A DNA stretch of 52,153 nucleotides from Saprospiraceae bacterium (GTDB taxonomy: Bacteria > Bacteroidota > Bacteroidia > Chitinophagales > Saprospiraceae), in assembly GCA_022842725.1 (NCBI GenBank), contig JALHOZ010000033.1:1-52153 (forward strand). Direction: 5' to 3'. A program made the position numbers and the translations under genes. Numbering within the stretch: the first letter of the stretch is position 1; each line of letters opens with the position of its first letter. The notes beneath the pieces are model-generated. The model did not search any database, was not told the DNA's origin, and saw nothing but the letters and a program-made list of their open reading frames with translations. This document shows positions 619-45,143 of this stretch, piece after piece.

Positions 619-683
619 TAATACAAAAGATCTCTAATGTCCTTCACCAGAAGGGCAGATTTGTTTATTTAGTTAATATTGAA

Positions 684-3461: not shown

Positions 3462-3505
3462 AAAAAAAATGCAGCAGGTTTAATAAGTCTGCTGCATTTT
3501 TTTTT
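3462..3505. terminator. strong bidirectional rho-independent terminator
   Basis: ATGCAGCAG (3469-3477) pairs with CTGCTGCAT (3489-3497), flanked by an A-run on the left and a T-run on the right. It can therefore stop transcription of the metal receptor on the plus strand and of the regulator gene on the minus strand. No gene is seen in the remaining bases to 3578. Confidence 0.85.
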
Positions 3506-3578: not shown

Positions 3579-6458
3579 TCAAATATTCATCATGTAATCA
3601 TTGAGATTCGCATCATTAGGGAGGTCTAATTTTTTTCTCAGGCGATAACGACTGATTTCAACCCCACGAACAGAAATATTAAGCAAAGGAGCAATATCTT
3701 TGGTGGTCAGATTAAGTTTGAGATAAGCACTTAATTTTAAGTCTCTGGGACTCAACTGAGGGAACATGGTTTTTAACCTGCTTAAAAAGTTATTGTGTAC
3801 CGCATCAAAATTCTGAGCAAAAGATTCCCAATCGTCATCAAGTCTTTCGTCGTTGGACAATATAGAGATCATGTTTTTGACTTCCCGTTTGACTTCCGGG
3901 TCAGTGATTTTTTTGACAATTTTGTTCAGTTCGGTTTTAAGCTTGTGAATCGCCTCATTTTTTTGAACCAAATGCATGGTTGAAAGACCCAGTTCTTTGT
4001 TTTTGTATAAAATTTCCGCTTCGAGTTTTTCATTTTGTAATTGAAAAACCCGGGCTTCGCTTTCATTTTTTTGTTCTTCGAGATCTGTGGTTATTTGTTC
4101 GTATTTATTCACCAACCGTTGACGACTATACCAAATGATTAAAATTATCGTCAAAAAATACATCAAAAAAGCATATTTTGAACGATACCACGGAGGAAGA
4201 ATTTCGAATGAAAATGTATAAGGTTGAGAAACATTACCGTATGAATCTATGGCTTCCAACTTAAGTTGATACTTTCCCGGTGCAAGGTTGTTGATTTCTT
4301 TACTGCTTTTAGTGTCCCAGGTTGACCAATCTTTTTGGGAAGGACTCAGATAATACCGGTATTTAATATTTTCGGAGCAGGCTGAAGACGCAAAATCAAA
4401 TAAAAAAGCATTGCTGGTGTAGTCGAAAGCAAGGCTATTATTATCCTGCTTTTCAAAAGAATCATATCCTTCGGTGACCACAAGTTGTTTGTTTACATCA
4501 AACAACCTGGAAATATACACATACATGTTTTTTGTGGTAACACTTTCATTACTGAAATACTTTAATCCTTTGGTTGTGAGAAACAAAGCATTGCCATTTT
4601 GAAGCGGATATATTTTTTCAAATCCGGGAACAAGGCCATTTTTTATTTCAAGATATTTATATTCGTAGGTTTTGCTGTTGAAAAGTTTGTTGTCATATCG
4701 GATAAAACCAACGTTTTTGTCTGTGGCCAGCCATAAAATATCATTGTTTTGCGCCAGCGCTTTGTAATAAAACGATGTATTTTCGGGTAGTCCCGGCAGT
4801 TTTATACTGATAAATGTATCTCTTTTTTTATCAAATTTGTAAAAACCCTTTTCTGCAGAAACGATGATTTCATTTTCAATATTAAAAACATTATTCCTCA
4901 GGTGACCGGGTAATCCGTTTTTCTGACCAAAATTTTCAATATCGGCCGTTAATTTTTCGACATTGATTTTCAAACGGAACAAACCCCTGTAGGGATGGGA
5001 AACCCATAAATATTCATCATCTTTTACCATGATCCTGCAAGACTCATCAAAACCGGAAATTTTTCCGACTTCCAACCATATCGAACCGGTTTTCCGGAAA
5101 ACATACAATCCGGAATAAAAACCACCCAAACAATAATTTTGGTCACCAAATTCCAAAAACTTCCAGGAACCGTTATTATTACTGATTTTTACAGCTTTAC
5201 GGTCACGGATTATGAATGCACCATCATTATGACTCATAATCAAATCTCCAAAAACAATATCCAAACCCCAAACCTGTCCGTCGGACCCCTCAATTTTTTG
5301 AAAACCAAAATAGGAATGTTCAGAAGATTTGGCTTCCAGAGATTTGTAATACAGACCATTTTCGGTGCCGCAATATAACTTTCCGTCGTAAATAGCGGTA
5401 GCATAAACAGCTCCCTGCAAAGCACCATCAGGATATATATTGGTTAAGGAACTGCCCAAATCGATTTTATTGATGCCATTATATGTACCAACCCAAAGTT
5501 GATGATTGGGTGAAAAGTGCAGGCTTGCAATGGTGTTATTCTGAAGGCCGGTTTCTTTGGTAAATGACAAATGTATTTTATCCTGATGATCAATGAGCAC
5601 AATACCTTTGAGATAGGTCCCGACTGCCAGAAGCGAATCGTTTATTTTACAGGCCGAATGTACCCTGTTTTGTTTTAAAAACCGGGAAACTTCATTATCC
5701 GTGATTTTCCATTTTCCACCTTCAAGTTTTATGAGACCATCTTTTTCCGTGAGAACGTACCATACATTTTGTAAGGAAATAATGTTGGTTATCGGTTTGT
5801 TTTTCAATAACTCACTTCCTTCCAAAAATGTGGCATTGCCGTCATCAATGCGGAAAAGACCTTTTTCGAGATCATTATAAACGATGGTATTGCCGATTTG
5901 AGAAAGGTGAGTACTTCCTTTTGTTCCGAATACTTTCCATTGACTGCCATTGTACGCATAAATCCTGTTTAATGACCTGAAATAGAGGGTTCCTTCCACA
6001 TATTTAAGGTTCCAAACGTCTTCCAATTGATTAAAAGCTGTTGGAATGGTGTTTTTTATGTCAAAATATTTTAGAACGCCGTTTTTATCGGGTTGAAAAT
6101 ACCCTAATTCATCCTGACCGCCCACATATATTTTTTGCAAGACACTGTCATAAGCAACAGACCTGAGGATCGTTTTGTCCGGGAGATAATATTTTTCCCA
6201 TTTATGGCCGTCAAACTGCAGTAAACCTTCATTATTGGCAGCCAAAATTCTGTTGTTTTTTCCACTGATGATATCCCAGGTTTGTGTACCGCCGTTGTAT
6301 TTATGCCTGTCAAAACCATAAATCTCCGGAATACCAAAGTTAATATTTTGGCTATGTAAATACTTTTCACCTGAAAAAAGCATTACAAAAACAAAACAAA
6401 CACAGCGAAAAACCAATCTGCCATGTCCGGTAAAAACATTATGTAAAAAATTTTTCAT
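3579..6458 (-). CDS. membrane-anchored sensor-regulator: beta-propeller, Y_Y_Y domain, TM helix, coiled coil, LuxR-type HTH
   Basis: The 959-residue protein starts with a hydrophobic export segment (about 15-36). A long propeller-like sensor region follows, with many repeats of the WVGT.NGI type. A Y_Y_Y (triple-tyrosine) domain at about 690-755 ends in FEILPPWYR. One transmembrane helix lies at about 763-778, a coiled coil at about 785-850 and a LuxR-type helix-turn-helix at about 902-959 (LSPRDLKLSAYLKLNLTTKD). It resembles Bacteroidota hybrid two-component systems but has no histidine-kinase or receiver domain, so it would couple periplasmic ligand sensing straight to DNA binding. It is divergently transcribed from the glucan operon and probably controls it. 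A weak -7 like TATCTTGC lies at 6501-6508 on its strand. Confidence 0.88.
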   Translation of the reverse strand: MKNFLHNVFTGHGRLVFRCVCFVFVMLFSGEKYLHSQNINFGIPEIYGFDRHKYNGGTQTWDIISGKNNRILAANNEGLLQFDGHKWEKYYLPDKTILRSVAYDSVLQKIYVGGQDELGYFQPDKNGVLKYFDIKNTIPTAFNQLEDVWNLKYVEGTLYFRSLNRIYAYNGSQWKVFGTKGSTHLSQIGNTIVYNDLEKGLFRIDDGNATFLEGSELLKNKPITNIISLQNVWYVLTEKDGLIKLEGGKWKITDNEVSRFLKQNRVHSACKINDSLLAVGTYLKGIVLIDHQDKIHLSFTKETGLQNNTIASLHFSPNHQLWVGTYNGINKIDLGSSLTNIYPDGALQGAVYATAIYDGKLYCGTENGLYYKSLEAKSSEHSYFGFQKIEGSDGQVWGLDIVFGDLIMSHNDGAFIIRDRKAVKISNNNGSWKFLEFGDQNYCLGGFYSGLYVFRKTGSIWLEVGKISGFDESCRIMVKDDEYLWVSHPYRGLFRLKINVEKLTADIENFGQKNGLPGHLRNNVFNIENEIIVSAEKGFYKFDKKRDTFISIKLPGLPENTSFYYKALAQNNDILWLATDKNVGFIRYDNKLFNSKTYEYKYLEIKNGLVPGFEKIYPLQNGNALFLTTKGLKYFSNESVTTKNMYVYISRLFDVNKQLVVTEGYDSFEKQDNNSLAFDYTSNAFLFDFASSACSENIKYRYYLSPSQKDWSTWDTKSSKEINNLAPGKYQLKLEAIDSYGNVSQPYTFSFEILPPWYRSKYAFLMYFLTIILIIWYSRQRLVNKYEQITTDLEEQKNESEARVFQLQNEKLEAEILYKNKELGLSTMHLVQKNEAIHKLKTELNKIVKKITDPEVKREVKNMISILSNDERLDDDWESFAQNFDAVHNNFLSRLKTMFPQLSPRDLKLSAYLKLNLTTKDIAPLLNISVRGVEISRYRLRKKLDLPNDANLNDYMMNI

Positions 6459-6750: not shown

Positions 6751-9700
6751 ATGAGGAACGTTGTAGCCGTGTTTATACTTTTCCTTTGTTTCGGCATATC
6801 GGAAGTCCTGTCCCAGGCCGACAAAGTAAAAGTTGATTATGAGAATAATGGCATTGTACTCAAAATCAACAATCAGCCTGTAATGGTAAATGGTATGAAC
6901 TGGGATTATTTCCCTATTGGTACCAATTATTCCTATTCTTTGTGGGACCAATCTGACCAGATCATACAAGCTGCCCTCGATGATGAAATGTCTTTATTGG
7001 CAAACATGGGTGTCAATTCTATCAGAGTGTATTCAGGAATTCCTAAAAAATGGATCACCTACATTTATGAAAAGTATGGAATTTACACTATGTTGAACCA
7101 TTCATTCGGAAGGTACGGACTCTCTATTGACGGGGTATGGTATGCTAATACAGATTATGCTGATCCAAAAGTGAGAACCTTACTGTTGGAAGAAGTCAGA
7201 AAGCTCGCAGAAGATTATAAGGATACTCCGGGACTATTATTGTATTTATTGGGTAATGAAAACAACTACGGCCTTTTCTGGGAAGGAGCCGAAACTGAAG
7301 ATATTCCTATGCAGGACAGAAAATCCACACAAAAGGCATATCCTATGTACACTCTTTTTAATGAAGGTGCAAAAATTATCAAAAGTGCTGATCAGAATCA
7401 TCCGGTAGCTTTGTGTAACGGAGACCTGCTTTTCCTAGATATTATTGCCAAAGAATGTAAAGATGTTGATATTTTTGGTACCAATGTGTACCGGGGAATT
7501 TCTTTTGGCGATTTGTTTGAAAGAGTAAAAAAGGAATATGGAAAACCGGTATTGTTTACTGAATTTGGTGCTGACGCCTTCAATGTTCAAAAAAGTGAGG
7601 AAGATGAGCGCGCACAGGCTATGTTTGCTGTAGGCAATTGGCAGGAAATATATGAAAATGCCGCAGGTTTGGGTAAAGCCGGAAATTCTATAGGTGGATA
7701 TACCTTCCAATTCAGTGACGGGTGGTGGAAATTTGGTCAAACTAAAAATCTCGATGTTCATGACATCAATGCTTCCTGGTCCAACGGTGGGTATTTTTCA
7801 GATTACAAAGAAGGAGAAAATAATATGAATGAAGAGTGGTTCGGGATTTGTGCGAAAGGGCCGACGAATGCAATGGGACTATACAAACTATATCCCAGAG
7901 CGGCTTATTATGCACTGAAAGAAGCCCATAAAATCAATCCTCTTCAGTCAGGTATGACTTTAACTTCCGTCACTAAACATTTTACAGCTATAAATCTTGC
8001 CGAATCCGAACTAAAGTCCCGTGGAGATAAAGCTGCACTAAACATCGGAAAATCAGGAAAAATCAGTCTCAGCAGATTCAGTGCTGAATTTAACACGTAT
8101 AATACAGGAGGAAGCCTCATTTCGACACCTAAAGACCCTGTGGCCGGCAACAACATCTTTCCAAATCAGCAGGGATTCGACCATACACAATCGTTTTTTG
8201 TCGGGGTGGAAGCACAACCCACAGCAAGCATGCGTGCCAGTGTGGAATTTAATATCCTTGGCAATGTAGCTCAAAATCCAATAGATCAGATATTTTATGA
8301 AAACAGAGGCAGACCTGTTTTGATCACCGGAAACAACGGAAGTGTCACCTTGCAGGACAACAATCGTTTTCAGGTTTACCGGGCTACCTATGCATGGGAG
8401 CACAGTCATTTCAGTCTGAACGGCTTTTACAGAACCGGGCATTATCATTGGGGATATGAAGGTGATTTTTTTGGTTTGTATCCGGAAGCCAATTATGGTC
8501 CCAACATAGATATATATAATGGTATAGCACCTTTTGGTTTTGAACTGGAAGGAAAGAAAAAGTTTGCCGGTCTTAAAGCCGCTTTCGGACCACAATTATG
8601 GTGGGGAGCAAACCCGGCTGTATTGCTCAAATACACCAAAGAAATTGCGCGGTTTAAAACAACGGCAATATTCCACGAAGATCTTGATCAGTTAGGTCTG
8701 ACAGAAAGTTCTTTTGCTATACCACAACCAAAAACCAGACGATTGACATTACATACAGCCCGAAAATTTGGAAAGTTTGGAATTGATGTCGGTGGTATTT
8801 GGGGCGGACAACCATTGCACGGACGGGAATTTCAATTGGTTCGTGAAGAGTCCGGCGTAACCAATGTTTTTGTGGATCAGATCAATGATTCGGATAGTTG
8901 GGGAGGAAAATTAAAACTAACTTTACAAAGTGGTTCCTTTAATTGGTACGCTCAATCCGCTGTACAAGGTTTGGTAGCAAACGGAGGAGCAGATTTTACC
9001 CAGACCTTTACCGGATGGAGACTCAAAGACAGCGGCAGTGGAAATCAGTATAATTTCCTGAGTGGATTTACTTACCGGATCGGAAATTTTGAAATAGCTC
9101 CGAATTTCCTTTGGCAACAGCCGATCGAAGGTCCGGTTCCTTCCGGTGTATCAGCCCCGGGAAGACCCAGAAATATTCTGACCGATCCTTTTGTCGTAAG
9201 AGCCAACAGAGAGACCGTAGCCGGAGAGTTGTTGCTGACTTATGATCCAACACCGGGAACATGGATGTATGAATGGGACAATGACAAAACCGAAGATTCA
9301 GAATTTGCATTAAGTGCCGGAGTGGTATACCGCCATCACCCTACCACTATGGATGCTGCGATCGGTATCTTTCCGGACGGGAGAACCACATTTGCTTTCC
9401 CGGGAGCACCTCCGGCTCAGGATTTGTGGGAAGTTCATACCAGAATTGTATCAAAAATGAATAAAAATTTTGGCATTATAGCCAATATTTATGCAGGTGA
9501 TGCGCAGGCAAATGGCAGCGATGCCAGATTGGTCAGGCGGTATGGTGCCGATGTAAGATCATTATACAAAAAAATGAAATTTCATACATTCCTCAAATTT
9601 AATGATTGGGGACCTTATGACTATCACCGGGATTTTAACCTTACCTTTCCGGTTCAGTTTATGCTGGACGTATCCACCACGACAGGCAAACCCGATTGGT

Positions 9701-9891
9701 TTCCGCTACCCGGAACCCGTATTGGTATTATGAGTACTTACAGGACTTTAGACAGATTTTCGCCAAGGTACTCGCCGGTCCAAACCATTGATCCTTCCGG
9801 CAATATTGTGCCCGATCCGAATGCCATAGGTTTTGATAATGGCAATGAATGGGAAATCAGAACGTATATTCAAATTAACTTATTTAAATAG
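6751..9891 (+). CDS. clan GH-A glycoside hydrolase fused to a C-terminal outer-membrane beta-barrel
   Basis: A signal peptide (about 1-22) precedes a TIM-barrel glycosidase domain (about 25-410) and then about 610 residues of alternating amphipathic strands ending in IQINLFK, as expected for an outer-membrane barrel. The likely acid/base is Glu170 in LLGNENNYG and the likely nucleophile is Glu271 in FTEFGADAF, both in the clan GH-A arrangement. The family is not certain: it could be GH2-C-like, GH5-like or related to GH17/GH72. It is the first gene of an eight-gene operon, and the next gene starts six bases after its stop. Because the operon lacks SusC/SusD, this protein may combine surface cleavage with a porin-like entry path. 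That is inference. Confidence 0.75.
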   Translation: MRNVVAVFILFLCFGISEVLSQADKVKVDYENNGIVLKINNQPVMVNGMNWDYFPIGTNYSYSLWDQSDQIIQAALDDEMSLLANMGVNSIRVYSGIPKKWITYIYEKYGIYTMLNHSFGRYGLSIDGVWYANTDYADPKVRTLLLEEVRKLAEDYKDTPGLLLYLLGNENNYGLFWEGAETEDIPMQDRKSTQKAYPMYTLFNEGAKIIKSADQNHPVALCNGDLLFLDIIAKECKDVDIFGTNVYRGISFGDLFERVKKEYGKPVLFTEFGADAFNVQKSEEDERAQAMFAVGNWQEIYENAAGLGKAGNSIGGYTFQFSDGWWKFGQTKNLDVHDINASWSNGGYFSDYKEGENNMNEEWFGICAKGPTNAMGLYKLYPRAAYYALKEAHKINPLQSGMTLTSVTKHFTAINLAESELKSRGDKAALNIGKSGKISLSRFSAEFNTYNTGGSLISTPKDPVAGNNIFPNQQGFDHTQSFFVGVEAQPTASMRASVEFNILGNVAQNPIDQIFYENRGRPVLITGNNGSVTLQDNNRFQVYRATYAWEHSHFSLNGFYRTGHYHWGYEGDFFGLYPEANYGPNIDIYNGIAPFGFELEGKKKFAGLKAAFGPQLWWGANPAVLLKYTKEIARFKTTAIFHEDLDQLGLTESSFAIPQPKTRRLTLHTARKFGKFGIDVGGIWGGQPLHGREFQLVREESGVTNVFVDQINDSDSWGGKLKLTLQSGSFNWYAQSAVQGLVANGGADFTQTFTGWRLKDSGSGNQYNFLSGFTYRIGNFEIAPNFLWQQPIEGPVPSGVSAPGRPRNILTDPFVVRANRETVAGELLLTYDPTPGTWMYEWDNDKTEDSEFALSAGVVYRHHPTTMDAAIGIFPDGRTTFAFPGAPPAQDLWEVHTRIVSKMNKNFGIIANIYAGDAQANGSDARLVRRYGADVRSLYKKMKFHTFLKFNDWGPYDYHRDFNLTFPVQFMLDVSTTTGKPDWFPLPGTRIGIMSTYRTLDRFSPRYSPVQTIDPSGNIVPDPNAIGFDNGNEWEIRTYIQINLFK

Positions 9892-9897
9892 ACTGAC

Positions 9898-11778
9898 ATG
9901 AAATTTTTTAATAAAAAGAACATAAACAGAATATTATTTGCAGGGATCATAAGTATTATTGTGATGGCTTGTGAACGAGATGTAACAGACCTTCAGTCAC
10001 CGGGTTATCCAACTAACCCTGCGGTGTTTATCGATGGATTCAGCGATGGATTAAATTATGCGGCTTTCGGGGGATCCGTGCCGGCGGCATTCCAGGTAGA
10101 CAATAAAGAAACGTATGATAATTCGGCAGCTTCTATGCGATTTGAGGTGCCGGACGCCAATGACCCTTTGGGAGCATATGCCGGAGGTGCTTTTTTCACC
10201 GGATCGGGAAGGAACCTTTCTTCCTTTAATGTCCTGACCTTTTGGGCAAAAGCAACCAAATCGGCAACGTTAGATATTGTAGGTTTTGGAAATGACTTGG
10301 GTGACAACAAGTATACAGCCTCTGTATCCGGATTAAAGATCAATACCAATTGGAAAAAATATTTCATTCCTATACCCGATCCTTCAAAACTGACAGCGGA
10401 ACGGGGAATGTTTTTTTATTCAGAAGGACCTGAAGAAGGTAATGGATATACCTTCTGGATTGACGAAGTAAAATTTGAAAATTTAGGTACGGTAGCCCAT
10501 CAGGGATTTGCCATTATGGAAGGAAAAGAAGTCATCAGAGAAGCTGAAGTGGATGAAAAAATTCGGGTTACCGGATTCAAAGCTTCAGCCAACCTGCCTA
10601 ATGGTATTGACCAAACGGTGGATGCATCTGTAGCTTATTTTACCTTTACCTCCTCAGATGAAAACATTGCTACCGTTGACCAAACCGGTGAAATAACCGT
10701 CATTGGTATGGGAGAAGCCATCATCACAGCTAAAGTGGGCACCAAAGAAGCCACAGGAGCTTTGATCGTCAAATCAAATGTAACTACGCCAAAACCTGTC
10801 ACACCGGCTCCGGCGCCAAACAAACCGGCAGCAGACGTGATTTCGATGTATAGCAATGTTTATTCAAACGTTCCTATTGATACGTGGAACACCCGATGGC
10901 AGTTTTCAACAGCTGAAGAATCGTTCATTCAGGTTCAGAATGATGATGTGATTCAGTACAAAAATCTCAATTTTGTTGGCATTGAATTTTCATCAACAAC
11001 CATCAATGCGACCAATATGACCCATTTTCATCTCGATATGTGGACACCGGATCCGGTTGCTCCGGGAAAATCTTTTAAGATTAAACTCATCGATTTCGGA
11101 CCAAATAACACATTCGGAGGGGGTGATGATTCAGAACACGAATTGTCCTTTTCCACTCCATTGGTCGTGAGTCAAAATTGGGTAGGCATCGATGTTCCTC
11201 TTTCTGCTTTCACAGGTTTGACAAGAAGGGGTAATCTGGCACAACTGGTACTTTCAGGAGATTTTCCAAATGTATATATTGACAATGTATATTTTTATAA
11301 ATCCGGTGGCGGCGGAGGGCCGACCGCACCAACGGTGGCAGCACCAACTCCGACCTATCCGGCAGCTAATGTTTTATCCATCTTCAGCGATGCTTATACC
11401 AATCTGGCAGGTACAAACCTGAATCCCGACTGGGGTCAGTCAACAAAAGTGACCGAAATTCAGATTCAAAATAATAAAACGTTGCGTTATGAAGGTTTAA
11501 ATTATCAGGGCACACAATTCGGCAGCAACCAAAATGTATCTACATTTCAGTTTTTTCATATTGATTTTTGGACAGCCAACTCCACTGAACTAAAAATATT
11601 TCTCATCAGTCCCGGACCTGTTGAAACACCTTTTAGTTTGACAGTGCCCACATCAGGATGGAGTAGTATTGATATCCCTTTGTCAGCATTTGCACCTGTC
11701 GACTTAAACAATGTGTTTCAAATCAAAGTAGAAGGAAACGGTGACATTTATTTTGACAATATTTTATTCCGAAAATAA
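9898..11778 (+). CDS. surface glycan-binding lipoprotein with Ig-like and tandem CBM-like modules
   Basis: This 626-residue protein has a lipoprotein signal with lipobox IIVMAC (Cys near 25). An N-terminal beta-sandwich (about 40-200) ends in FWIDEVKFE. A Big_2-like Ig domain (about 215-295) contains FTSSDENIATVDQTGEIT. A Pro-rich linker (TPKPVTPAPAPN) follows, then two similar carbohydrate-binding-type sandwiches (about 310-470 and 490-626). Each sandwich opens with an AxxVxSxxSxxYxN motif and closes with a YxDNxxF motif. No catalytic residues are evident. By position it fills the place of SusD/SusE-type binders, holding beta-glucan at the cell surface. It lies six bases after the barrel-fusion gene and 18 bases before the GH16 gene. 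Confidence 0.8.
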   Translation: MKFFNKKNINRILFAGIISIIVMACERDVTDLQSPGYPTNPAVFIDGFSDGLNYAAFGGSVPAAFQVDNKETYDNSAASMRFEVPDANDPLGAYAGGAFFTGSGRNLSSFNVLTFWAKATKSATLDIVGFGNDLGDNKYTASVSGLKINTNWKKYFIPIPDPSKLTAERGMFFYSEGPEEGNGYTFWIDEVKFENLGTVAHQGFAIMEGKEVIREAEVDEKIRVTGFKASANLPNGIDQTVDASVAYFTFTSSDENIATVDQTGEITVIGMGEAIITAKVGTKEATGALIVKSNVTTPKPVTPAPAPNKPAADVISMYSNVYSNVPIDTWNTRWQFSTAEESFIQVQNDDVIQYKNLNFVGIEFSSTTINATNMTHFHLDMWTPDPVAPGKSFKIKLIDFGPNNTFGGGDDSEHELSFSTPLVVSQNWVGIDVPLSAFTGLTRRGNLAQLVLSGDFPNVYIDNVYFYKSGGGGGPTAPTVAAPTPTYPAANVLSIFSDAYTNLAGTNLNPDWGQSTKVTEIQIQNNKTLRYEGLNYQGTQFGSNQNVSTFQFFHIDFWTANSTELKIFLISPGPVETPFSLTVPTSGWSSIDIPLSAFAPVDLNNVFQIKVEGNGDIYFDNILFRK

Positions 11779-11796
11779 AAATAAAACAGCAGTAAA

Positions 11797-12624
11797 ATGA
11801 AAAGTAGTAATATATTAAATCTTTTCCTGGGAATTGGTCTGATTATATCAACGGGTTGTCAGACTGATGATGTTCAAAAATTGGAAACCAGAAAATGGAC
11901 CCTTACCTGGAGTGATGAGTTTGAAGGAGAAAAAAACCAGGCACCTGACCCTCAAAAATGGACTTATGATATCGGTACCGGTCAGAATGGCTGGGGCAAC
12001 GGCGAGTTTCAAACCTATACCCAAAGACCTGAAAATGTAGGTTTGGACGGTAGTGGGAATTTAGTGATTACTGCGCTCAATCAACCATTCGGAGGAGCAA
12101 ACTTCTCTTCGGCCAGATTAAAAACAGAAGGATTGTTTACCCAAAAGTACGGACGTTTTGAGGCCCGCATCAAAACACCTTACGGACCCGGAATATGGCC
12201 TGCTTTCTGGATGCTTGGCGAAAACATCAATGAAGTAAGATGGCCGTTATGCGGTGAAATAGACATCATGGAATTAAGAGGTCAGGCACCAAATACTATG
12301 TACGGAACTATACATGGTCCGGGATATTCAGGCGGCAATTCTGTAGGAAAAAGTTATTCTTTGCTCAATGACAGATTTGACAAAAATTTTTATGTTTATG
12401 CTATAGAATGGGATGAGGATAAGATTGACTTTTTTGTCAATGATTATTTATATCAAAGGATTACAAAAGAAGATGTCCCCGGTGAATGGGTGTATGATCA
12501 ACCCTTTTTTATGATCCTTAATATTGCCGTAGGAGGTAATTTTGTTGGTTTTCCGACAACACAGACTCCGTTTCCGCAGAAAATGGAAGTTGATTATGTT
12601 CGTGTTTACAAAAAAACAAATTAA
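11797..12624 (+). CDS. GH16 endo-beta-1,3-glucanase (laminarinase-type) lipoprotein
   Basis: This 275-residue protein has lipobox ISTGC near residue 21, so it is probably membrane-anchored and, in this context, surface-exposed. The fold begins with WSDEFEG and includes GRFEARIKTPYGPGIWPAFW. The catalytic motif GEIDIMEL gives nucleophile Glu154, assisting Asp156 and acid/base Glu159, the ExDxxE arrangement of GH16 laminarinases and lichenases. The length is normal for a single-domain GH16. It would cut beta-1,3-glucan internally, supplying oligosaccharides to the rest of the system. The binding module comes from the preceding lipoprotein rather than from a fused CBM. Confidence 0.93.
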   Translation: MKSSNILNLFLGIGLIISTGCQTDDVQKLETRKWTLTWSDEFEGEKNQAPDPQKWTYDIGTGQNGWGNGEFQTYTQRPENVGLDGSGNLVITALNQPFGGANFSSARLKTEGLFTQKYGRFEARIKTPYGPGIWPAFWMLGENINEVRWPLCGEIDIMELRGQAPNTMYGTIHGPGYSGGNSVGKSYSLLNDRFDKNFYVYAIEWDEDKIDFFVNDYLYQRITKEDVPGEWVYDQPFFMILNIAVGGNFVGFPTTQTPFPQKMEVDYVRVYKKTN

Positions 12625-12657
12625 TTTCATACCAAAATTTAACATCCTGACAAAACG

Positions 12658-15600
12658 ATGAATCACCAAAACGAATCTGAAATTTCAGAACAAACGACAT
12701 TGACCTTTGAAGAGTTTGGCAATGAACCGTTTTTGAAGATTTCCCATCATAACCAAATGCGTCCTTTTTTTATGAGTATCGTAAGTGACTCAGACCATTG
12801 GATGTTCATTTCCAGTAACGGAGGACTTACGGCCGGACGTAAAAATGCGGAATATGCCATATTTCCTTATTATACGGACGACAAAATCACTGAGTTTGCG
12901 GATATAACCGGAAACAAATCCATTTTTCAGATTATCACTGATGGCAAAAAAGGTATTTGGGAGCCATTTTCTGTAAGAAAAAGTCCTCAACAAAAAACGG
13001 AACAAAATCTGTACAAAAGCATCTATGGCAATAAAATTGTTTTTGAAGAGATATTGTGTGATTATCAATTGACCTTCAGATATTCCTGGGCATCAAGTGA
13101 TGCGTTTGGTTTTGTCAAGTCATCGGTCCTGATTAATCAAAGTGACAAGGATTTGAACATCACACTGTTGGACGGGATTCAGAATATTATGCCCTGTGGT
13201 GTAAGCAGTGATTTACAAAGAGCAAGCAGCAATCTCGTGGATGCTTATAAAAGAAGTGAACTGCACAAATCTTCAGGTTTAGGTATTTTTGCACTCAGTG
13301 CCGTCATTGTGGACAAAGCAGAACCCAGTGAAGCATTAAAAGCCAATGTTGTTTGGTCTGTCGGGTTGCATGATGTTACCTATTTGTTGTCATCCCTTCA
13401 ACTGGACTCATTCCGTAAAGGAGAGGAGGTAAGAGAAGAAACCGATATCAAAGGCGAAAAAGGTGCCTATTTTATTTCAAAAAAGATACTTCTGGAAAAG
13501 GGTAAAAACCAATCATGGCAGATTATCGCCGATGTAAATAAAAACCACAGTCAGGTAATTCAGTTGACAGAAGAGATTCAATCTAATCCTGACTTGACAA
13601 ATATAATCGAAAAGGACATCCGGAAAGGAACCCGAAATCTCAAACTACTGGTTGCTTCTGCAGACGGCCTTCAACATACCCGGGATACTTTACAGGATAG
13701 CAGAAACTATTCGAATGTTCTTTTTAACATCATGCGTGGTGGAATATTTGACAACGGGTATTGGATCGATAAAATTGATTTTGAACAATATATCCGGCGT
13801 GCAAACCGGGAAGTTTACGAAAAACATCAAACCTTTTTTGTATCGCTGGAATCAAATTTCAGACATACAACATTGTCTGAAAAGGCACAGGCAACGGGTG
13901 ATGCTGACCTGATCAGACTCAGCACAGAATATCTTCCGCTCAAATTCAGCAGACGACATGGTGATCCCAGCAGGCCCTGGAACAAATTTTCCATCAATTT
14001 GCGCGACGAACATACAGGCGAAAAAATTCTTGATTACGAAGGGAACTGGCGGGATATCTTTCAGAATTGGGAAGCTTTGGCATATTCATATCCCGGATAT
14101 ATTGACGGAATGATATGTAAGTTTGTCAATGCGTCCACTTTTGATGGGTACAATCCTTACAGGGTGACAAAAGATGGATTTGACTGGGAAACCATAGAAC
14201 CGGATGATCCATGGTCATACATCGGATATTGGGGAGACCATCAGATTATTTATCTCCAGAAATTTTTAGAAATCATTGAAAAATTCAACCCGGGAGGGTT
14301 GTCTTCCTATTTTGATAAAGATTTATTTGTTTACGCGGGTGTCCCATACATTATAAAACCTTATGAAGATATCGTCAAAAACCCGAAAGACACCATCGAT
14401 TTTGATGCAACCAAAGATCATATAATCAGAAAAAAACGGGAATCTCTAGGTGGTGATGGGGCCTTGCTGAGAGACAATGAGGATTCGATATACCATGTTA
14501 ATCTTGTCGAAAAATTATTGGTAACTTTGCTTGCAAAACTTTCCAATTTTATTCCTGAGGGCGGAATTTGGTTAAACACCCAACGTCCTGAATGGAATGA
14601 TGCCAATAATGCATTGGTCGGCAACGGAGTTTCTATGGTCACTTTGTATTACATGCGAAGATTTTTGGTCTTTTTGGAAAAAACATTTGAAAATACAACA
14701 TTGGAACACATAAAACTATCCAATGAGTTGGTAGAGTTTTATCATAGTGTAAGAGAAACTTTGGAGACCCACCATAATTTACTCGAAGGGTCAATAGACG
14801 ATCAACATCGCAAAATAATTCTGGATCAATTGGGCAAAGCGGCTTCTGATTACAGATCACAAATATATAAATCCGGATTTTGGGGTAAAAAAAGGACGGC
14901 CAGCCTCAATGGTTTAAAACGTTTTATCCGGTTAAGTATTGACTTTACAGAACATTCCATACGATGTAATCAACGACAAGATGGTCTGTATCATGCCTAT
15001 AATCTCATGACCTATTCAGATGAAGGCGTTTCCATAACCCATCTTGATGAAATGTTGGAGGGACAGGTAGCCGTGCTCAGTTCGGGGTATCTTACAGGAG
15101 CAAATAGTCTTGCTGTCCTCGACGCCATGAAAAAAAGTGCGTTATTCAGACCGGACCAATATAGCTACATTCTGTATCCGAATAAAAATTTGCCCGGATT
15201 TCTTCAAAAAAATATCATTCCAACAGAAGAGGTTCATAAATCGGCATTTATTAAAAAAATGACAGACAAACATGATACTTCGATTGTTGAAAAAGATATC
15301 AAAGGGTTCTATCATTTTAACGGAAACTTTAAAAATGCCGGGGATTTAAAAAATGCTTTACAAAAATTTGAACATACAGAAGACACACAATTAGTCCGAA
15401 ACGAAACGTCGCTAATTTTGGAAATGTATGAGAAGGTATTTCATCATAAAGCATTCACCGGCCGATCCGGTACCTTTTACGGTTATGAAGGTTTGGGTTC
15501 CATCTACTGGCACATGGTTTCCAAGTTGTTGCTTGCCGTTCAGGAAGCTGCGCTACATTCTGTCGAAGCAGGAGAAAGTGCCGAAACGACAGGCAGATTG

Positions 15601-16107
15601 TTGGAACATTACTACGAAATTCAGGCAGGTATCGGTGTGCATAAATCACCGGTTCTTTACGGTGCATTCCCTACCGATCCTTATTCACACACACCAATGC
15701 ATCGCGGTGCCCAACAGCCGGGAATGACAGGACAGGTCAAAGAAGATCTGTTGACCCGTTGGGGAGAATTAGGTGTCGTGGTTGAAAACGGTATGTTGTT
15801 GTTCCGACCGGTTTTATTGCGGGCTTCTGAATTTGTGCCTGAACCAAAAACAGTGCTCTATACCGATTTGAACGGAACAGAAAAAACCATTCAGCTACAA
15901 AACAATCAATTGTTTTTTACTTACTGCCAGGTACCTGTGATTTACAAGCTCAGTGACGACCACAAAACTGACATAACATACAGTTCTGGAAAACATATAC
16001 AATACGACGGGACATCACTGAATCAGACAGATAGTGTTTCTTTATTCGAAAGAACCGGAGAAATAGAAAAAATTGAAGTTTGTATATCACGTAACATTCT
16101 CAAATAA
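12658..16107 (+). CDS. cytoplasmic beta-1,3-oligoglucan phosphorylase, probable GH149 (GH94-related)
   Basis: This 1149-residue protein has no signal peptide. The layout is that of inverting GH94-type phosphorylases: an N-terminal beta-sandwich domain, a helical linker and an (alpha/alpha)6 barrel. The segment RPEWNDANNALVGNG aligns with the GDWND catalytic region of GH94, giving Asp648 as candidate general acid. It is much longer than the roughly 800 residues of cellobiose phosphorylases but fits GH149, whose members act on beta-1,3-oligoglucans and are about this long. The surrounding GH16, GH17 and GH30 genes support that substrate. Phosphorolysis would release glucose-1-phosphate in the cytoplasm and save ATP. 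GH94 or GH161 membership remains possible. Confidence 0.8.
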   Translation: MNHQNESEISEQTTLTFEEFGNEPFLKISHHNQMRPFFMSIVSDSDHWMFISSNGGLTAGRKNAEYAIFPYYTDDKITEFADITGNKSIFQIITDGKKGIWEPFSVRKSPQQKTEQNLYKSIYGNKIVFEEILCDYQLTFRYSWASSDAFGFVKSSVLINQSDKDLNITLLDGIQNIMPCGVSSDLQRASSNLVDAYKRSELHKSSGLGIFALSAVIVDKAEPSEALKANVVWSVGLHDVTYLLSSLQLDSFRKGEEVREETDIKGEKGAYFISKKILLEKGKNQSWQIIADVNKNHSQVIQLTEEIQSNPDLTNIIEKDIRKGTRNLKLLVASADGLQHTRDTLQDSRNYSNVLFNIMRGGIFDNGYWIDKIDFEQYIRRANREVYEKHQTFFVSLESNFRHTTLSEKAQATGDADLIRLSTEYLPLKFSRRHGDPSRPWNKFSINLRDEHTGEKILDYEGNWRDIFQNWEALAYSYPGYIDGMICKFVNASTFDGYNPYRVTKDGFDWETIEPDDPWSYIGYWGDHQIIYLQKFLEIIEKFNPGGLSSYFDKDLFVYAGVPYIIKPYEDIVKNPKDTIDFDATKDHIIRKKRESLGGDGALLRDNEDSIYHVNLVEKLLVTLLAKLSNFIPEGGIWLNTQRPEWNDANNALVGNGVSMVTLYYMRRFLVFLEKTFENTTLEHIKLSNELVEFYHSVRETLETHHNLLEGSIDDQHRKIILDQLGKAASDYRSQIYKSGFWGKKRTASLNGLKRFIRLSIDFTEHSIRCNQRQDGLYHAYNLMTYSDEGVSITHLDEMLEGQVAVLSSGYLTGANSLAVLDAMKKSALFRPDQYSYILYPNKNLPGFLQKNIIPTEEVHKSAFIKKMTDKHDTSIVEKDIKGFYHFNGNFKNAGDLKNALQKFEHTEDTQLVRNETSLILEMYEKVFHHKAFTGRSGTFYGYEGLGSIYWHMVSKLLLAVQEAALHSVEAGESAETTGRLLEHYYEIQAGIGVHKSPVLYGAFPTDPYSHTPMHRGAQQPGMTGQVKEDLLTRWGELGVVVENGMLLFRPVLLRASEFVPEPKTVLYTDLNGTEKTIQLQNNQLFFTYCQVPVIYKLSDDHKTDITYSSGKHIQYDGTSLNQTDSVSLFERTGEIEKIEVCISRNILK

Positions 16108-16125
16108 AAGAAAAAATACCATGAG

Positions 16126-17400
16126 ATGAAAACGATACCGATACCCGTAAAATATAAAGATTTTATCATACCTTTATTATTAATCACTCTGATGTCTTTT
16201 ACCAATTTACCATTATATAGTCAAAATAATCCGGATAAAACAGCAGCTCAAATATTAGGCAATCCTGAATATCTGGCCATTAGTTATGGAGGATATCGAC
16301 AAAAAACCCGTGATATTCAGCCCACTTTGATTCAAATCAAAGATGATTTAAAAATTTTGCACGCTATGGGTATCCGGGTGCTAAGAACCTATAATGTTCA
16401 TCTCGCTGAAGCTTCCAATATACTAAAAGTCATCAGAGAAATGAAAGACGAAGATCCGTCATTTGAAATGTATGTGATGTTGGGGGCGTGGATTGATTGT
16501 AAAAATGCATGGACCCATCTGCCTGTAAATCATGATGAAGAAAGTGACAGAAATGCGGTAGAAATCGACAGGGCTGTTGAACTGGCGAATACATATCCCG
16601 AAATTGTAAAAATCATTGCTGTAGGAAATGAAGCCATGGTCAAATGGGCAACTAGTTATTATGTCCAACCGTGGGTAATTCTCAAATGGGTCAATCATTT
16701 ACAAAACCTCAAAAAGGAAGATAAGTTACCTAAAGATCTTTGGGTGACCAGTTCTGATGATTTTGCTTCCTGGGGCGGAGGTGACACCGGTTATCACACA
16801 AAAGATTTAGAAAATCTGATTAAAGCTGTTGATTATGTTTCCATGCATACCTACCCTTACCACAACACCCATTACAATCCGGATTTTTGGTTTTCACCTG
16901 ATAGTGAAAATGATGTAAATGAAGTTCAAAAAGCCGAAACTGCCATGGAAAGAGCGTTGATATTTGCTAAACAACAATATAAAAATGTAAAATCATATGT
17001 CCATTCAATCAGTCCGGACAAACCCATTCATATAGGAGAAACGGGTTGGGCTTCAGTTTCCGATGGGTTTTATGGCGCCGAAGGTTCAAAAGCTTCCGAC
17101 GAATACAAACAAGCGCTTTATTACCAAAAAATGAGAAATTGGACTAATGCAGAAAATATTTCTTGTTTCTATTTTGAAGCGTTTGACGAACCCTGGAAAG
17201 ACAGTTCAAACAAAAATGGTTCTGAAAATCATTTCGGAATATTTACCGTAGATGGCAAAGCAAAGTTTGTTTTATGGAATTTAGTAGATAATCACGTTTT
17301 TTCCAACTTAAAAAGAGATGGAAAAACTATACAAAAGACGTTTTCAGGTGATAAAAATCTGATGATGCAAACTGTTTTAGTGCCACCAAAAAAAGATTAA
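16126..17400 (+). CDS. exported GH17 beta-1,3-glucan-active enzyme
   Basis: This 424-residue protein has an N-terminal hydrophobic signal (about 12-32, ending in YSQ). The TIM barrel carries AVGNEAMVKW with acid/base Glu169 and HIGETGWAS with nucleophile Glu305, both diagnostic of GH17. LKILHAMGIRVLRTYN is also typical of the family. It probably works in the periplasm on oligosaccharides released by the GH16, as hydrolase or transglycosylase. The stop codon is one base before the ATG of the GH30 gene, indicating translational coupling. An alternative ATG at 16121 is in another frame. It shares active-site motifs with the signal-less GH17 at the operon end but differs in length and N terminus. 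Confidence 0.9.
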   Translation: MKTIPIPVKYKDFIIPLLLITLMSFTNLPLYSQNNPDKTAAQILGNPEYLAISYGGYRQKTRDIQPTLIQIKDDLKILHAMGIRVLRTYNVHLAEASNILKVIREMKDEDPSFEMYVMLGAWIDCKNAWTHLPVNHDEESDRNAVEIDRAVELANTYPEIVKIIAVGNEAMVKWATSYYVQPWVILKWVNHLQNLKKEDKLPKDLWVTSSDDFASWGGGDTGYHTKDLENLIKAVDYVSMHTYPYHNTHYNPDFWFSPDSENDVNEVQKAETAMERALIFAKQQYKNVKSYVHSISPDKPIHIGETGWASVSDGFYGAEGSKASDEYKQALYYQKMRNWTNAENISCFYFEAFDEPWKDSSNKNGSENHFGIFTVDGKAKFVLWNLVDNHVFSNLKRDGKTIQKTFSGDKNLMMQTVLVPPKKD

Positions 17401-17401
17401 A

Positions 17402-18889
17402 ATGAATTTACTGCGATACATATTTGGTTTTTTAATTCTTGTTTTAATAATGAGTAATAAAGGGATAAACAATACATCAGGGGTTACCGTGTACGAAACT
17501 TCTGAAAGTGGTCATTCTTTAAAAAAAGTTGAACAATTTACAACTTCAGAAAAAAAGATTATCATACGATTACATCCGGAAGAAAAATTTCAAACCATCA
17601 CCGGTTTTGGTGGTTCTTTTACCGAAGCTTCTGCTTCTTTACTCAATAGGTTAAGCAAAAAAAACAGAAAAAAAATTCTCGAGGCTTATTTTAGTGAAGA
17701 GGGAGCCAATTATTCACTAACCCGGACACACATTGCATCCTGCGATTTTTCACTCAATAATTACACCTATGCCAAGGTAGAAAACGACTTACAAATGGAG
17801 CATTTTACGATTGAAGATGACAAAGATGATTTGATTCCGATGATTAAAGAAGCTCAATCCATATCTAAGGATGGTTTCAAAATTATTGCTTCACCCTGGT
17901 CCTGCCCGCCCTGGATGAAAGACAATAAAAGTTATGTTGGTGGAAAATTACTACCCGAATACAATGATGCTTTTTCATTATATTTTTCAAAATATCTGGG
18001 TGCTTACAAAAAAGAAGGAATAAACATTTGGGGAATTACCGTTATCAATGAACCACACGGAAATGGGAACAATTGGGAAAGTACACATTTTTCTCCTGAA
18101 GAAATGACACTATTTGTTCAAAATCATCTCGGACCAAAATTAGAAAAAGATGGTTGGAAGGATGTAAAAATTTTTGGTTATGATCAAAACCGGGCTGGTT
18201 TGCCTGAGTGGGTTGATGCCATGTACAAAAATGAAGCAACTTCCAAATACTTTGCCGGAACGGCCATTCATTGGTATGAGAGTACTTACGATTATTTTGC
18301 AAAAGAATTACAATATGCTCACCATAAAGCGCCGAATAAATATCTGATAGAAACGGAAGGTTGTGTTGATTCTGAAATACCTCATTGGCAGGACGATCCC
18401 TGGTATTGGAAAAAAGAAGCTACCGATTGGGGTTGGGATTGGGCAAGTGAAAAAGAAAAATATTTACACCCAAAATATGCTCCGGTCAACCGTTATGCTA
18501 CAGATATGATAGGTTGTCTGAATAATTGGGTCGATGGCTGGGTGGATTGGAACATGGTTCTGGACAGGCAAGGTGGTCCCAACTGGTTTAAAAACTGGTG
18601 TGTCGCACCCGTTATAGTGGACCCTGAAGCTGATGAAGTTTATTTCACGCCACTGTATTATGTGATGTCACATTTCAGCAGATTTATCAGACCCGGGGCA
18701 ACCCGAATAGGATGGCAAATGGATGACCAGTCAATTATGTGTACAGCAGTCGAAAATCCTGATGGTACCAAAGTATTGATTGTTTTCAATCCCGAAAATA
18801 GTCCGAAATCATTAGAAATTGTGAGTGAAGGTCAATCATCTTATGTGAGCATATCTCCTCAGGCAATACAAACCATTATTATTCATTAA
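17402..18889 (+). CDS. exported GH30 beta-glucosidase or endo-beta-1,6-glucanase
   Basis: This 495-residue protein has a signal-like N terminus (about 1-20). It carries the GH30 hallmarks TGFGGSFTEASASLL, SPWSCPPWMK, acid/base Glu217 in VINEPHGN, and nucleophile Glu319 in LIETEGCVD. A C-terminal beta domain (FNPENSPKSLEIVSEGQSS) completes the usual GH30 fold. GH30 enzymes of subfamilies 1 and 3 act on beta-1,3- or beta-1,6-glucosides, so here it probably removes the beta-1,6 branches of laminarin-like glucan. It starts one base after the GH17 stop and is followed 14 bases later by the transporter gene. Confidence 0.93.
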   Translation: MNLLRYIFGFLILVLIMSNKGINNTSGVTVYETSESGHSLKKVEQFTTSEKKIIIRLHPEEKFQTITGFGGSFTEASASLLNRLSKKNRKKILEAYFSEEGANYSLTRTHIASCDFSLNNYTYAKVENDLQMEHFTIEDDKDDLIPMIKEAQSISKDGFKIIASPWSCPPWMKDNKSYVGGKLLPEYNDAFSLYFSKYLGAYKKEGINIWGITVINEPHGNGNNWESTHFSPEEMTLFVQNHLGPKLEKDGWKDVKIFGYDQNRAGLPEWVDAMYKNEATSKYFAGTAIHWYESTYDYFAKELQYAHHKAPNKYLIETEGCVDSEIPHWQDDPWYWKKEATDWGWDWASEKEKYLHPKYAPVNRYATDMIGCLNNWVDGWVDWNMVLDRQGGPNWFKNWCVAPVIVDPEADEVYFTPLYYVMSHFSRFIRPGATRIGWQMDDQSIMCTAVENPDGTKVLIVFNPENSPKSLEIVSEGQSSYVSISPQAIQTIIIH

Positions 18890-18903
18890 AAACAAAAAAC
18901 ATA

Positions 18904-20466
18904 ATGTCAACGAGTCCAACCAAATCTAAAGACCGGGTACCCTTTATTCAAAAATCTGCTTTTGGAGCAGGACACCTCGCCTTAAATTTATTGCCCGGAG
19001 CACTGGGTGTTTTTAGTTTTTTCTTATTGACCGCTTTTGGAATGGACCCTTTCCTTGCGGGAATTTTAGGTGGTTTGCCCAGGGTGTATGATGCCATTAC
19101 CGATCCCATTATGGGTTTTATTTCAGACAATACAAAGTCTAAATGGGGCAGAAGACGGCCTTATATTTTTGTCGGAGCCATCCTTAGTGGTATTTTTTAC
19201 ATCTTTTTATGGCAAATGAGCCCTGAAAATTCCCAAATGTATAACTTTTGGTATTTCTTAATTTTCTCCCTGATATTTTTGACAGGTAATACCATTTTTG
19301 CCACTCCTCTCGTAGGTTTGGGGTATGAGATGACCACAGACTACAATGAACGTACCCGCCTGATGGGTTTTGCCAATACCGTGGGACAAATAGCCTGGAT
19401 GATCGTTCCCTGGTTTTGGGTCATCATAGCCAATCCAAAAATGTACGCCACTCAGGTGGAAGGTGTCAATCAATTGGCGATATATGTGGGAATAATATGT
19501 ATGGTTCTGGGTGTTTTGCCCGCTATATTTTGTAAAGGAATTGATGCCGCACATATGGAAAACAGGAAAATAATTTCATTTAAAACCATAGGTTCGAGTT
19601 TCAAAGATTTGTTTTTTAGTATTAAACAAGTTTCTCAAAACAAACCGTTTATGAAATTATGCGCTGCTACTTTTTTGGTGTTTAACGGATTTCAGATTGT
19701 GGCTTCCTTTAGTGTTTTTATCATTGTATTTTATATGTATAACGGCAGTTATGAAGGTGCGGGAACATGGCCTGCGTGGTTTGCTACGATCAGTGCCATA
19801 TTAACTGCTTTTTTTGTTATACCTGTTGTGACAAGAATCTCAAATGCCTACGGAAAAAAGAATGCTTTCGTCATAGCTTCTGTAATTTCAATAACGGGTT
19901 ATCTTCTTAAATGGTGGGGTTTTGATAAAGATTTGAATAATTCATTTAATAACACCGGAATCGGACAAAGTATGAACCAGAGTCTTCAATCCTTTTTTGA
20001 TTTTTTGAGTCCTGCTTTGGAACAATTAAATATGTCATGGTTTGTTATCGACACCAGTGGCGGAGTGCCATGGCTCATGTTTTTTCCTATCCCTTTACTG
20101 GCTTTCGGTCTAGGAAGTTTGTTTACTCTAATGATGAGTATGACCGCAGATGTTTGTGATCTGGACGAACTAAACAACGGCATGCCCAGAAAAGAAGGAA
20201 CTTTCGGCGCTATATACTGGTGGATGGTCAAATTGGGACAAGGTTTAGCTCTCGTAATAGGAGGGTTTGTTTTAAAAGTTATCGGTTTTGATGGTGGTAT
20301 GACTACACAATCAGCTGAAACACTGGTACAACTCAGATTAATGGATATTTTTATTCCATCTCTGACTGCCGGAATAGCAGCCTGGGTCATGTGGAGTTAC
20401 GATTTATCTGAAGATAGGGCAAAAGAAATCAAAGTTGAACTCGTAAAAAGAAGAGGTGAATTATAA
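18904..20466 (+). CDS. GPH-family (MelB/XylP-like) sugar:cation symporter
   Basis: This 520-residue protein has about 12 hydrophobic membrane segments and no signal peptide. The region around DAITDPIMGFISDNTKSKWG followed by RRRPYIF is the signature of the glycoside-pentoside-hexuronide family. The conserved DVCDLDELNNGMPRKEGTFG loop late in the protein is also typical. It would import glucose or short beta-glucan oligosaccharides across the inner membrane with a cation. Its place between exported glucanases and cytoplasmic phosphorylase/GH17 supports oligosaccharide uptake. A cytoplasmic-type segment of about 60 residues between membrane segments near residue 345 is longer than usual. Confidence 0.92.
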   Translation: MSTSPTKSKDRVPFIQKSAFGAGHLALNLLPGALGVFSFFLLTAFGMDPFLAGILGGLPRVYDAITDPIMGFISDNTKSKWGRRRPYIFVGAILSGIFYIFLWQMSPENSQMYNFWYFLIFSLIFLTGNTIFATPLVGLGYEMTTDYNERTRLMGFANTVGQIAWMIVPWFWVIIANPKMYATQVEGVNQLAIYVGIICMVLGVLPAIFCKGIDAAHMENRKIISFKTIGSSFKDLFFSIKQVSQNKPFMKLCAATFLVFNGFQIVASFSVFIIVFYMYNGSYEGAGTWPAWFATISAILTAFFVIPVVTRISNAYGKKNAFVIASVISITGYLLKWWGFDKDLNNSFNNTGIGQSMNQSLQSFFDFLSPALEQLNMSWFVIDTSGGVPWLMFFPIPLLAFGLGSLFTLMMSMTADVCDLDELNNGMPRKEGTFGAIYWWMVKLGQGLALVIGGFVLKVIGFDGGMTTQSAETLVQLRLMDIFIPSLTAGIAAWVMWSYDLSEDRAKEIKVELVKRRGEL

Positions 20467-20514
20467 AAGGTTTACCTGAAATAAAAAATTAACCTATTTA
20501 TAAAATATTTTAAG

Positions 20515-21423
20515 ATGTCATACAGACAAGATCATATTTCAAACTTTCAAACTTCAGCAAGCAGCGGGTTTGAAAACAATCTTAGTACTTTATCTGAACA
20601 GGAGGTTAGTTCTCTTTTCATAAAAACGCTACACAATGGTATGCACGGTATTTGTTTCAGCCTGTATGAAGACGGCCAAAAACCGGGAGATATCATCTCT
20701 GAAGCTCAGATTATCAGAAGAATCGGGATTCTCAAACCTTATACAAAATGGATCAGGTCTTTTTCGACGACTGAAAGTAATGACCACATTCCTGTAATTG
20801 CCAAAGAACATGGGTTAAAAACCATGGTCGGTGCCTGGCTTGGCAAAGATCTTCAAAAAAATGATGAAGAAATAGAAAATCTTATCCGTCTGTGTAGGGA
20901 AGGATATGTAGATATAGCTGCCGTGGGTAATGAAGTATTATACAGAAACGATATATCCCTTGAACAATTATTGACATATATCCGATATGTAAAGGAACAG
21001 GTTCCGGGGATTACGGTAGGTTATGTCGACGCATATTACGAGTTCAGCAGGCATCCGGAATTGGTGGATATTTGTGATGTTGTTTTGACAAATTATTATC
21101 CTTTTTGGGAAGGAACACCTTTTCAGGATTCTCTTGGGCATCTTCATCACATGCACCAACAAACAAAAGATGCATCTAAAGGAAAAAAAATCATTGTCAC
21201 TGAAACCGGGTGGCCCAGCCAGGGAGAAAATACAAAAAGTGCAGTTCCCGGACGTCTTGAGGCCATGTTATATTTTATCAATGTTCAAATGTGGGCACAA
21301 CAGCATGACGTTGACATGTTTTATTTTTCATCCTTTGACGAATCCTGGAAAGTTGGCTCTGAAGGAGAAGTGGGAGCGTATTGGGGTCTTTGGGATAAAA
21401 ATGAACAGTTGAAACATTTATGA
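20515..21423 (+). CDS. signal-less (cytoplasmic) GH17 family enzyme
   Basis: This 302-residue protein has no hydrophobic N terminus; residues 1-35 are polar. It is a minimal GH17 barrel with acid/base Glu140 in AVGNEVLYR and nucleophile Glu230 in IVTETGWPSQG. FYFSSFDESWKVGSEG is the usual late barrel motif. It is last in the operon, 48 bases after the transporter. A cytosolic GH17 beside a cytosolic phosphorylase could trim or transfer imported beta-1,3-oligosaccharides, for instance removing ends the phosphorylase cannot use. That role is inference. The weak hairpin after it (about 21432-21465) is not a convincing terminator. Confidence 0.9.
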   Translation: MSYRQDHISNFQTSASSGFENNLSTLSEQEVSSLFIKTLHNGMHGICFSLYEDGQKPGDIISEAQIIRRIGILKPYTKWIRSFSTTESNDHIPVIAKEHGLKTMVGAWLGKDLQKNDEEIENLIRLCREGYVDIAAVGNEVLYRNDISLEQLLTYIRYVKEQVPGITVGYVDAYYEFSRHPELVDICDVVLTNYYPFWEGTPFQDSLGHLHHMHQQTKDASKGKKIIVTETGWPSQGENTKSAVPGRLEAMLYFINVQMWAQQHDVDMFYFSSFDESWKVGSEGEVGAYWGLWDKNEQLKHL

Positions 21424-22921: not shown

Positions 22922-23462
22922 ATTGTACCATTTTAGAATCTGTTAATATATTGTTTTTTATCCATTTCAGCGCTCTGAACAATTGTGATCTCGAGGTTTC
23001 CTGACTTATTCCCAAAAGTTCAGATATCTCTTTATGATTATATTCATCTATTACTGATAGTAAAAAGATGGTTTTATAACCCACCGGCATGTTTTTGAGC
23101 ATATTTTCGAGGTCCGTGACATTGAGGTGATTCAGAAATTCTGTTGACACGTCATCCGCAGTATCAATCGTTTCCAGGGAATACACAAAACTAATTTTTT
23201 TGGATTTGCGGATCAGGGTAGCACATTGATTGACGGCAAGTTTTGACAACCAGTTTTGGAAGGATCCTTTCGTAAAATCAAAATTTTTCAAACTCATGTA
23301 CACCTGCGCAAAAACTTCCTGCATGGCATCTTTGCGGTCAACATCTTCGACAAAATAGTTTTTGATAATAGCATATACATAAGGAGCACATTGTTGATAC
23401 AATGATTTTGTCGCTTCGCGGTCTCCCCGGATACAAAGATGTATGATATTTTGCTCAACCAA
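22908..23462 (-). CDS. ECF (sigma-70 family) RNA polymerase sigma factor
   Basis: This 184-residue protein has region 2 with DAMQEVFAQVYMSLKNFDF and FQNWLSKLAVNQCATLIRK, and region 4 with MPVGYKTIFLLSVIDEYNHK and ISELLGISQETSRSQLFRAL. It would direct RNA polymerase to envelope or surface genes. The start is probably the TTG at 23462: an in-frame stop lies six codons upstream, and no ATG precedes region 2. It follows the lipoprotein stop by 20 bases and overlaps the barrel/anti-sigma gene by 14, so all three form one operon. Confidence 0.92.
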   Translation of the reverse strand: MVEQNIIHLCIRGDREATKSLYQQCAPYVYAIIKNYFVEDVDRKDAMQEVFAQVYMSLKNFDFTKGSFQNWLSKLAVNQCATLIRKSKKISFVYSLETIDTADDVSTEFLNHLNVTDLENMLKNMPVGYKTIFLLSVIDEYNHKEISELLGISQETSRSQLFRALKWIKNNILTDSKMVQYGLF

Positions 23463-45139: not shown

Positions 45140-45143
45140 GCGA

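Follow-up and report, generated by a model that had tools for sequence, protein, structure and literature searches.

The window analyzed here (52,153 nucleotides) is one entire contig, JALHOZ010000033.1, of an assembly of a Saprospiraceae bacterium (GCA_022842725.1; 87 contigs, 95.5% complete). It carries on its plus strand eight open reading frames (ORFs) between positions 6751 and 21423, which are separated by gaps of 6, 18, 33, 18, 1, 14 and 48 bases, in agreement with the close spacing (1-48 bases) described in an initial annotation. The first gene (6751..9891, +) encodes P0001, a protein of 1046 amino acids in which a signal peptide is followed by a clan GH-A glucanase-like domain (residues ~25-400), a helical linker (404-435) and an outer-membrane barrel (439-1043). 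This fusion of a glycoside hydrolase (GH) with a barrel is the finding of the present work, and it occurs as a single copy in the genome.

The barrel domain (8044..9888, +; 615 amino acids) has been modelled alone with AlphaFold, which has given ~26 strands and a pLDDT of 82.5. In fold comparisons based on VIA-align, the 50 best rows have all been membrane barrels, and the predicted models show an outer-membrane beta-barrel fold resembling AlgE and OprD-type porins. By structure prediction, the case for an outer-membrane protein is strong. The likeness to AlgE and the OprD/Occ porins is one of fold only, with identities of 6-12% and 256-297 of the 615 residues aligned, and we know of no fused enzyme in these porins. 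The barrel of the window reaches no Pfam model above cut-off; DUF6882 gives 12.5 bits (cut-off 23.9) and matches 5 of 35 barrel members at E up to 1 (best 0.0019), and a PHROGs search with the barrel has returned zero matches. The enzyme domain shares 16-23% identity with GH158/GH157 endo-beta-1,3-glucanases, whose matched chains of 404-528 residues are too short to hold a barrel. It also matches the GH2 TIM-barrel model PF02836, with no other GH2 Pfam domain found in P0001 at E 0.001; GH2 enzymes carry sandwich domains beside the TIM barrel. The predicted topology places the enzyme on the periplasmic side of the barrel, at its N-terminal short-turn side, and the outside loops of the barrel are as conserved as an enzyme. 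The closest fold, AlgE, is titled alginate export protein or transporter, and a secretory role has been considered, in which the barrel, in the manner of an autotransporter or of AlgE, would export the glucanase or a glycan; we regard it as highly unlikely, as the gene context is catabolic and as ~26 strands with an enzyme at the N-terminal short-turn side are unlike an autotransporter, the barrels of which have 12 strands.

The remaining seven genes of the operon encode further parts of a glucan pathway, with signal peptides assessed by eye and by a simple lipobox pattern. The second gene (9898..11778, +) encodes a lipoprotein (lipobox VMAC; Big_2 at 23.0 bits, cut-off 22.8), probably a surface glycan-binding protein (SGBP), with two repeated modules that are 34.5% identical across 165 residues. 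It is followed by a GH16 lipoprotein of the endo-beta-1,3-glucanase type (11797..12624, +; Pfam 86.2 bits; lipobox STGC), a GH149 beta-1,3-glucan phosphorylase with no evident signal peptide (12658..16107, +; NF058639 at 1756.7 bits, cut-off 1150; PDB 6hq6 at E=0) and a GH17 protein of the laminarinase type with a signal-like N-terminus (16126..17400, +), which matches PDB 6fcg, presumably the Formosa laminarinase GH17A, at E 5e-178. A GH30 protein of the beta-1,6-glucosidase/glucanase type (17402..18889, +; Pfam 269 bits; NF053856 at 244 bits, under its cut-off of 700) has glucosylceramidases as its top solved relatives and precedes an inner-membrane GPH (MFS_2) sugar symporter (18904..20466, +; Pfam 188.2 bits) and a glucanosyltransferase-like GH17 protein with no evident signal peptide (20515..21423, +; PDB 4wtp at E 6.2e-33). 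The families GH16, GH149, GH17, GH30, GPH and the second GH17 fit the beta-glucan or laminarin-type pathway that had been proposed initially, and on family grounds the case for laminarin-type utilisation is strong. A divergent gene upstream (3579..6458, -; 959 amino acids) encodes a Reg_prop/Y_Y_Y/LuxR-type protein by Pfam (LuxR/GerE at 23.2 bits, just below the cut-off of 23.5) and is a possible regulator of the operon; 30 of 58 named relatives have a homologue no more than 1.5 kb upstream of the fused gene, versus 1 of 29 unnamed ones.

The order of these genes is retained in related genomes, as the initial annotation had suggested to check. Among relatives with enough sequence, many of whose stretches stop near 9.9 kb, an SGBP-type gene follows the fused gene within 600 bases in 27/30 loci of one set (L046-L075) and 67/74 of a second (L096-L175); GH16 lies within 7.5 kb (29/30 and 66/66), GH149 within 9.9 kb (26/30 and 54/64), and GPH is found in 26/30 and 42/64, respectively. 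In nine of the 30 loci of the first set (L049, L056, L058, L059, L066, L068, L069, L074, L075), the GPH genes encode 703-855 amino acids and may represent a GPH-GH17 fusion as in Formosa. Four alignments have been used, namely the window with 26 of 40 stretches (A1), the window with 58 loci picked by hand out of 80 (A2), 35 of 36 script-picked representatives (A3), and the window with 73 of 80 loci, omitting L129, L134, L135 and four near-copies (A4).

Among the eight operon proteins, the Pfam and NCBIfam models for SusC, TonB receptors and SusD find no match, in line with the initial annotation, nor has SusC or SusD been found among the window proteins scanned (Pfam; NCBIfam for ten proteins). 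An adjacent susC-susD pair, the mark of a canonical polysaccharide utilisation locus (PUL), is absent, and the gene content is that of a GH149-type carbohydrate-active enzyme (CAZyme) cluster without susCD (GH149 with GH16/GH17 and GH30/GH3). The sole TonB receptor detected in the window (684-3215) has been rejected as a missing SusC, since it reaches 44 bits where the SusC cut-off is 368.25, has a Cys-rich N-terminus and is separated from the locus by a terminator-like site at 3462-3504. Together with a Cys-rich protein of 124 amino acids it forms a pair (244-3215, +; CGMC in the receptor's N-terminus) that perhaps, as a guess, serves metal uptake.

Elsewhere in this genome, six SusC proteins above cut-off and three PF07980 SusD proteins are encoded. 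On another contig, C15, a stretch at 55.7-63.3 kb holds SusC, SusD, a PKD lipoprotein and two GH16 enzymes and is a classical beta-glucan-type locus. The earlier claim that outer-membrane passage must be solved differently is therefore unsupported for this genome. As judged from sequence, an unlinked SusC/SusD pair of the kind that the initial annotation named as a possible refutation is present; its idea that the fused barrel provides passage holds as far as a predicted outer-membrane barrel is joined to the first enzyme. A second locus on C15 (L088, 85-101 kb) contains SusC/SusD, two PF10091 glycoamylase-type proteins, an Exo_endo_phos protein and GH3, for a substrate that we assume is perhaps beta-1,2-glucan. 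The SusC-SusD-PKD-GH16-GH16 locus on C15 may itself carry out the outer-membrane passage here, with the fused barrel merely anchoring the glucanase. Some solo relatives of the enzyme would be anchored in another way, with lipobox-like cysteines near the N-terminus in 4 of 9 (L077, L079, L080, L081), which, like the frequent presence of SusD in fusion genomes given below, is in favour of an anchor. A mere anchor, however, would have no need for external loops with enzyme-like conservation, and three of 32 fusion genomes lack SusD by four models; we consider this explanation doubtful.

The distribution of the fusion has been followed in 395 sampled genomes of Bacteroidota in the wide sense, as judged by named relatives. 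Relatives of P0001, including distant ones, are present in 49 of the 395. The barrel occurs in 35, as a long open frame in 32 (a fused form open over at least 1028 amino acids is counted in 33 of the 395), split by a contig end in one (G204), interrupted in one (G235) and as a remnant of 58 positions in one (G119). Three of the 32 have been flagged with one stop codon, where the ORFs of L061 and L063 terminate and that of G305 is open; we take the flagged codon in all three as the gene's own end. A barrel without the enzyme has never been found in the 395 genomes, except for a piece of 99 amino acids in G204, which is taken as the other side of the contig break. A genome collection has yielded at least 557 relatives; the top 80 by resemblance to the fused protein extend into the barrel and include Flavobacterium, Chryseobacterium, Algoriphagus, Saprospiraceae, Balneolaceae and others; the nearest of these 80 is a metagenome-assembled genome labelled Aureispira (83%).

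In a tree of 44 enzyme domains, nine unfused domains are spread over five or more positions among the 31 fused domains, a pattern in which the counts of changes cannot separate gain from loss and four outgroup rows are very long. The remnant in G119 lies past a stop codon and is 41% identical over 56 residues. Because the barrel has never been seen alone and because of this remnant, a single fusion followed by several losses is favoured on sequence grounds. Beside the solo glucanases, a separate barrel gene has not been found within the stretches searched. Six unfused loci include upstream sequence; SusC/SusD lie near three of them, directly upstream in L078/L178 and L080 and on the other strand ~12 kb off in L179, and not near L176, L177 and L180. 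The sister of the unfused L078 is L072, which is fused and has SusC/SusD upstream, as if in this one case SusC/SusD had joined first and the barrel had been lost later. Evidence against a general rule of this kind comes from 28 GH149 loci lacking the fusion (L199-L226, ~8 kb on each side, several ended by contig ends), of which only three match SusC/SusD (SusD in L199, weak SusC-type matches in L205 and L224). Four fused loci have SusC/SusD within 10 kb upstream, namely L069 and L072 of 30 and L140 and L172 of 80, and would suit an anchoring barrel; SusC/SusD query sequences were taken from L140, L178, L088 and L089, and the scores of L140 are self-matches because it supplied queries. Together with the 3/28 result, these four loci have led us to reject the idea that the barrel strictly takes the place of SusC/SusD.

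Not counting the present genome, the fusion is found in 32 genomes (31 intact and G204), of which 27 have PF07980 and 28 have PF14322 (E 0.01). Three genomes of 99-100% completeness (G051, G066, G255) show no match to PF07980 or PF14322 at E 0.01, nor to PF12771 or PF12741 at E 0.001; G144 is without PF07980 and PF14322, yet holds one PF12771 protein and one SusC above cut-off. No SusC above cut-off is found in G066 and G255, and the one in G051 barely passes (375.6 versus 368.25). In each of the three genomes, SGBP, GH16 and GPH genes accompany the fusion and GH149 lies on the same contig; with the limited set of queries used, no outer-membrane barrel other than the fused one has been recognised in the cluster. 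Because these relatives hold the locus without SusD by four models, SusCD seems not generally required for it.

We propose that the barrel forms a glucan channel that does not depend on TonB and keeps a glucanase tethered on its periplasmic side, a reading based on predicted structure to which we assign a probability of roughly 0.6. The GH16 enzyme and the lipoprotein would work at the cell surface, as their lipoboxes suggest, and oligosaccharides would cross the ~26-strand barrel without TonB. In the periplasm, given the predicted topology, they would meet the tethered GH158/GH157-like glucanase, GH17 and GH30, before the GPH symporter would carry them over the inner membrane and GH149, by its family, would phosphorolyse them. 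The whole operon would thereby degrade and import a laminarin-like beta-1,3/1,6-glucan; the gene families, their order, the fusion, its conservation and the predicted fold are what the analysis shows, and the substrate, the pore function and the passive transport are what we infer. That the barrel functions in the absence of SusC/SusD and was discarded time and again, in certain lineages once SusC/SusD had entered the locus, has in our view an even chance of being correct. Two points weigh against the channel: losses of the barrel probably number five or more, and in the neighbourhood of GH149 loci that lack the fusion SusC/SusD are mostly not seen either. G051, G066 and G255 also have many other TonB-receptor-like genes, which leave room for another receptor. 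Import could then be due to a TonB-dependent receptor of a type other than SusC, encoded elsewhere. TIGR04056 has 39 matches in G051 and 40 in G066, mostly N-terminal pieces, and in the available text of PMC5827456 type II GH149 clusters of Proteobacteria include a TonB receptor. In the surroundings of the fused gene across L046-L075 and L096-L175, queries with the window's TonB receptor and SusC, the receptor types covered, have revealed no conserved TonB receptor apart from the four loci with SusC/SusD and a pair of short matches in L109, and we consider such a receptor improbable.

Other genes of the window include tandem VPS10/sortilin-like proteins (36112-39432 and 39532-42852, -; 1106 amino acids each, 64% identical), two extracytoplasmic function (ECF) sigma factor genes (21509-23462 and 43153-45157, -; 28% mutual identity), each of which overlaps a gene that weakly matches an outer-membrane barrel, and a small Fic-domain ORF of 135 amino acids (27190-27597, +).

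Laminarin is a major marine carbon store, and the TonB-driven SusC/SusD pair is commonly treated as synonymous with glycan uptake in Bacteroidota. A conserved enzyme-barrel fusion, wide in the phylum and sometimes without detectable SusD, would if confirmed represent a second import route. Annotators would gain a family to recognise, because the window's barrel stays under Pfam cut-offs and such fused proteins are probably filed as 'GH2'. Searches of the open-licence literature without preprints, judged by title and abstract opening, have listed no publication on a glycosidase fused to an outer-membrane barrel.

The absence of SusC/SusD is not new, and the operon is a variant of SusCD-less laminarin clusters. 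According to the available part of the paper that founded GH149, most GH149 genes of Bacteroidetes map to PULs and CAZyme clusters lacking susCD (PMC5827456, 2018), and multi-CAZyme loci without susCD have been counted in PMC10811738. With these reports and a similar Muricauda set (PMC13188888), as far as the available texts extend, the expectation that locus-prediction methods would miss such an operon finds no support. Like the operon, the clusters of PMC5827456 combine GH149 with GH17 and/or GH16 and with GH3 and/or GH30_1 and have no SusCD pair; unlike here, a fused barrel goes unmentioned in that part of the paper. The Muricauda laminarin PUL (PMC13188888) comprises GH2, GH16, GH149, GH17A, GH30_1, MFS and GH17B, with a LuxR-type gene first in many clusters, and the label GH2 is in keeping with the Pfam model matched by P0001, so that the protein may be the same fusion; it differs in that GH17A is a predicted lipoprotein and that the available text mentions no barrel domain. 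The variant 1 laminarin PUL (PMC10108472) shares the order GH149-GH0-GH30_1-GH17, where GH0 may be a solo glucanase, and has one example without susCD, whereas susCD is named the characteristic pair of these PULs in the text available. Finally, the Formosa GH17-transporter fusion (PMC6246565) likewise joins an enzyme to a membrane transporter for laminarin use, but in the description available GH17 is linked to a membrane-spanning transporter (MFS according to PMC10108472) instead of an outer-membrane barrel.
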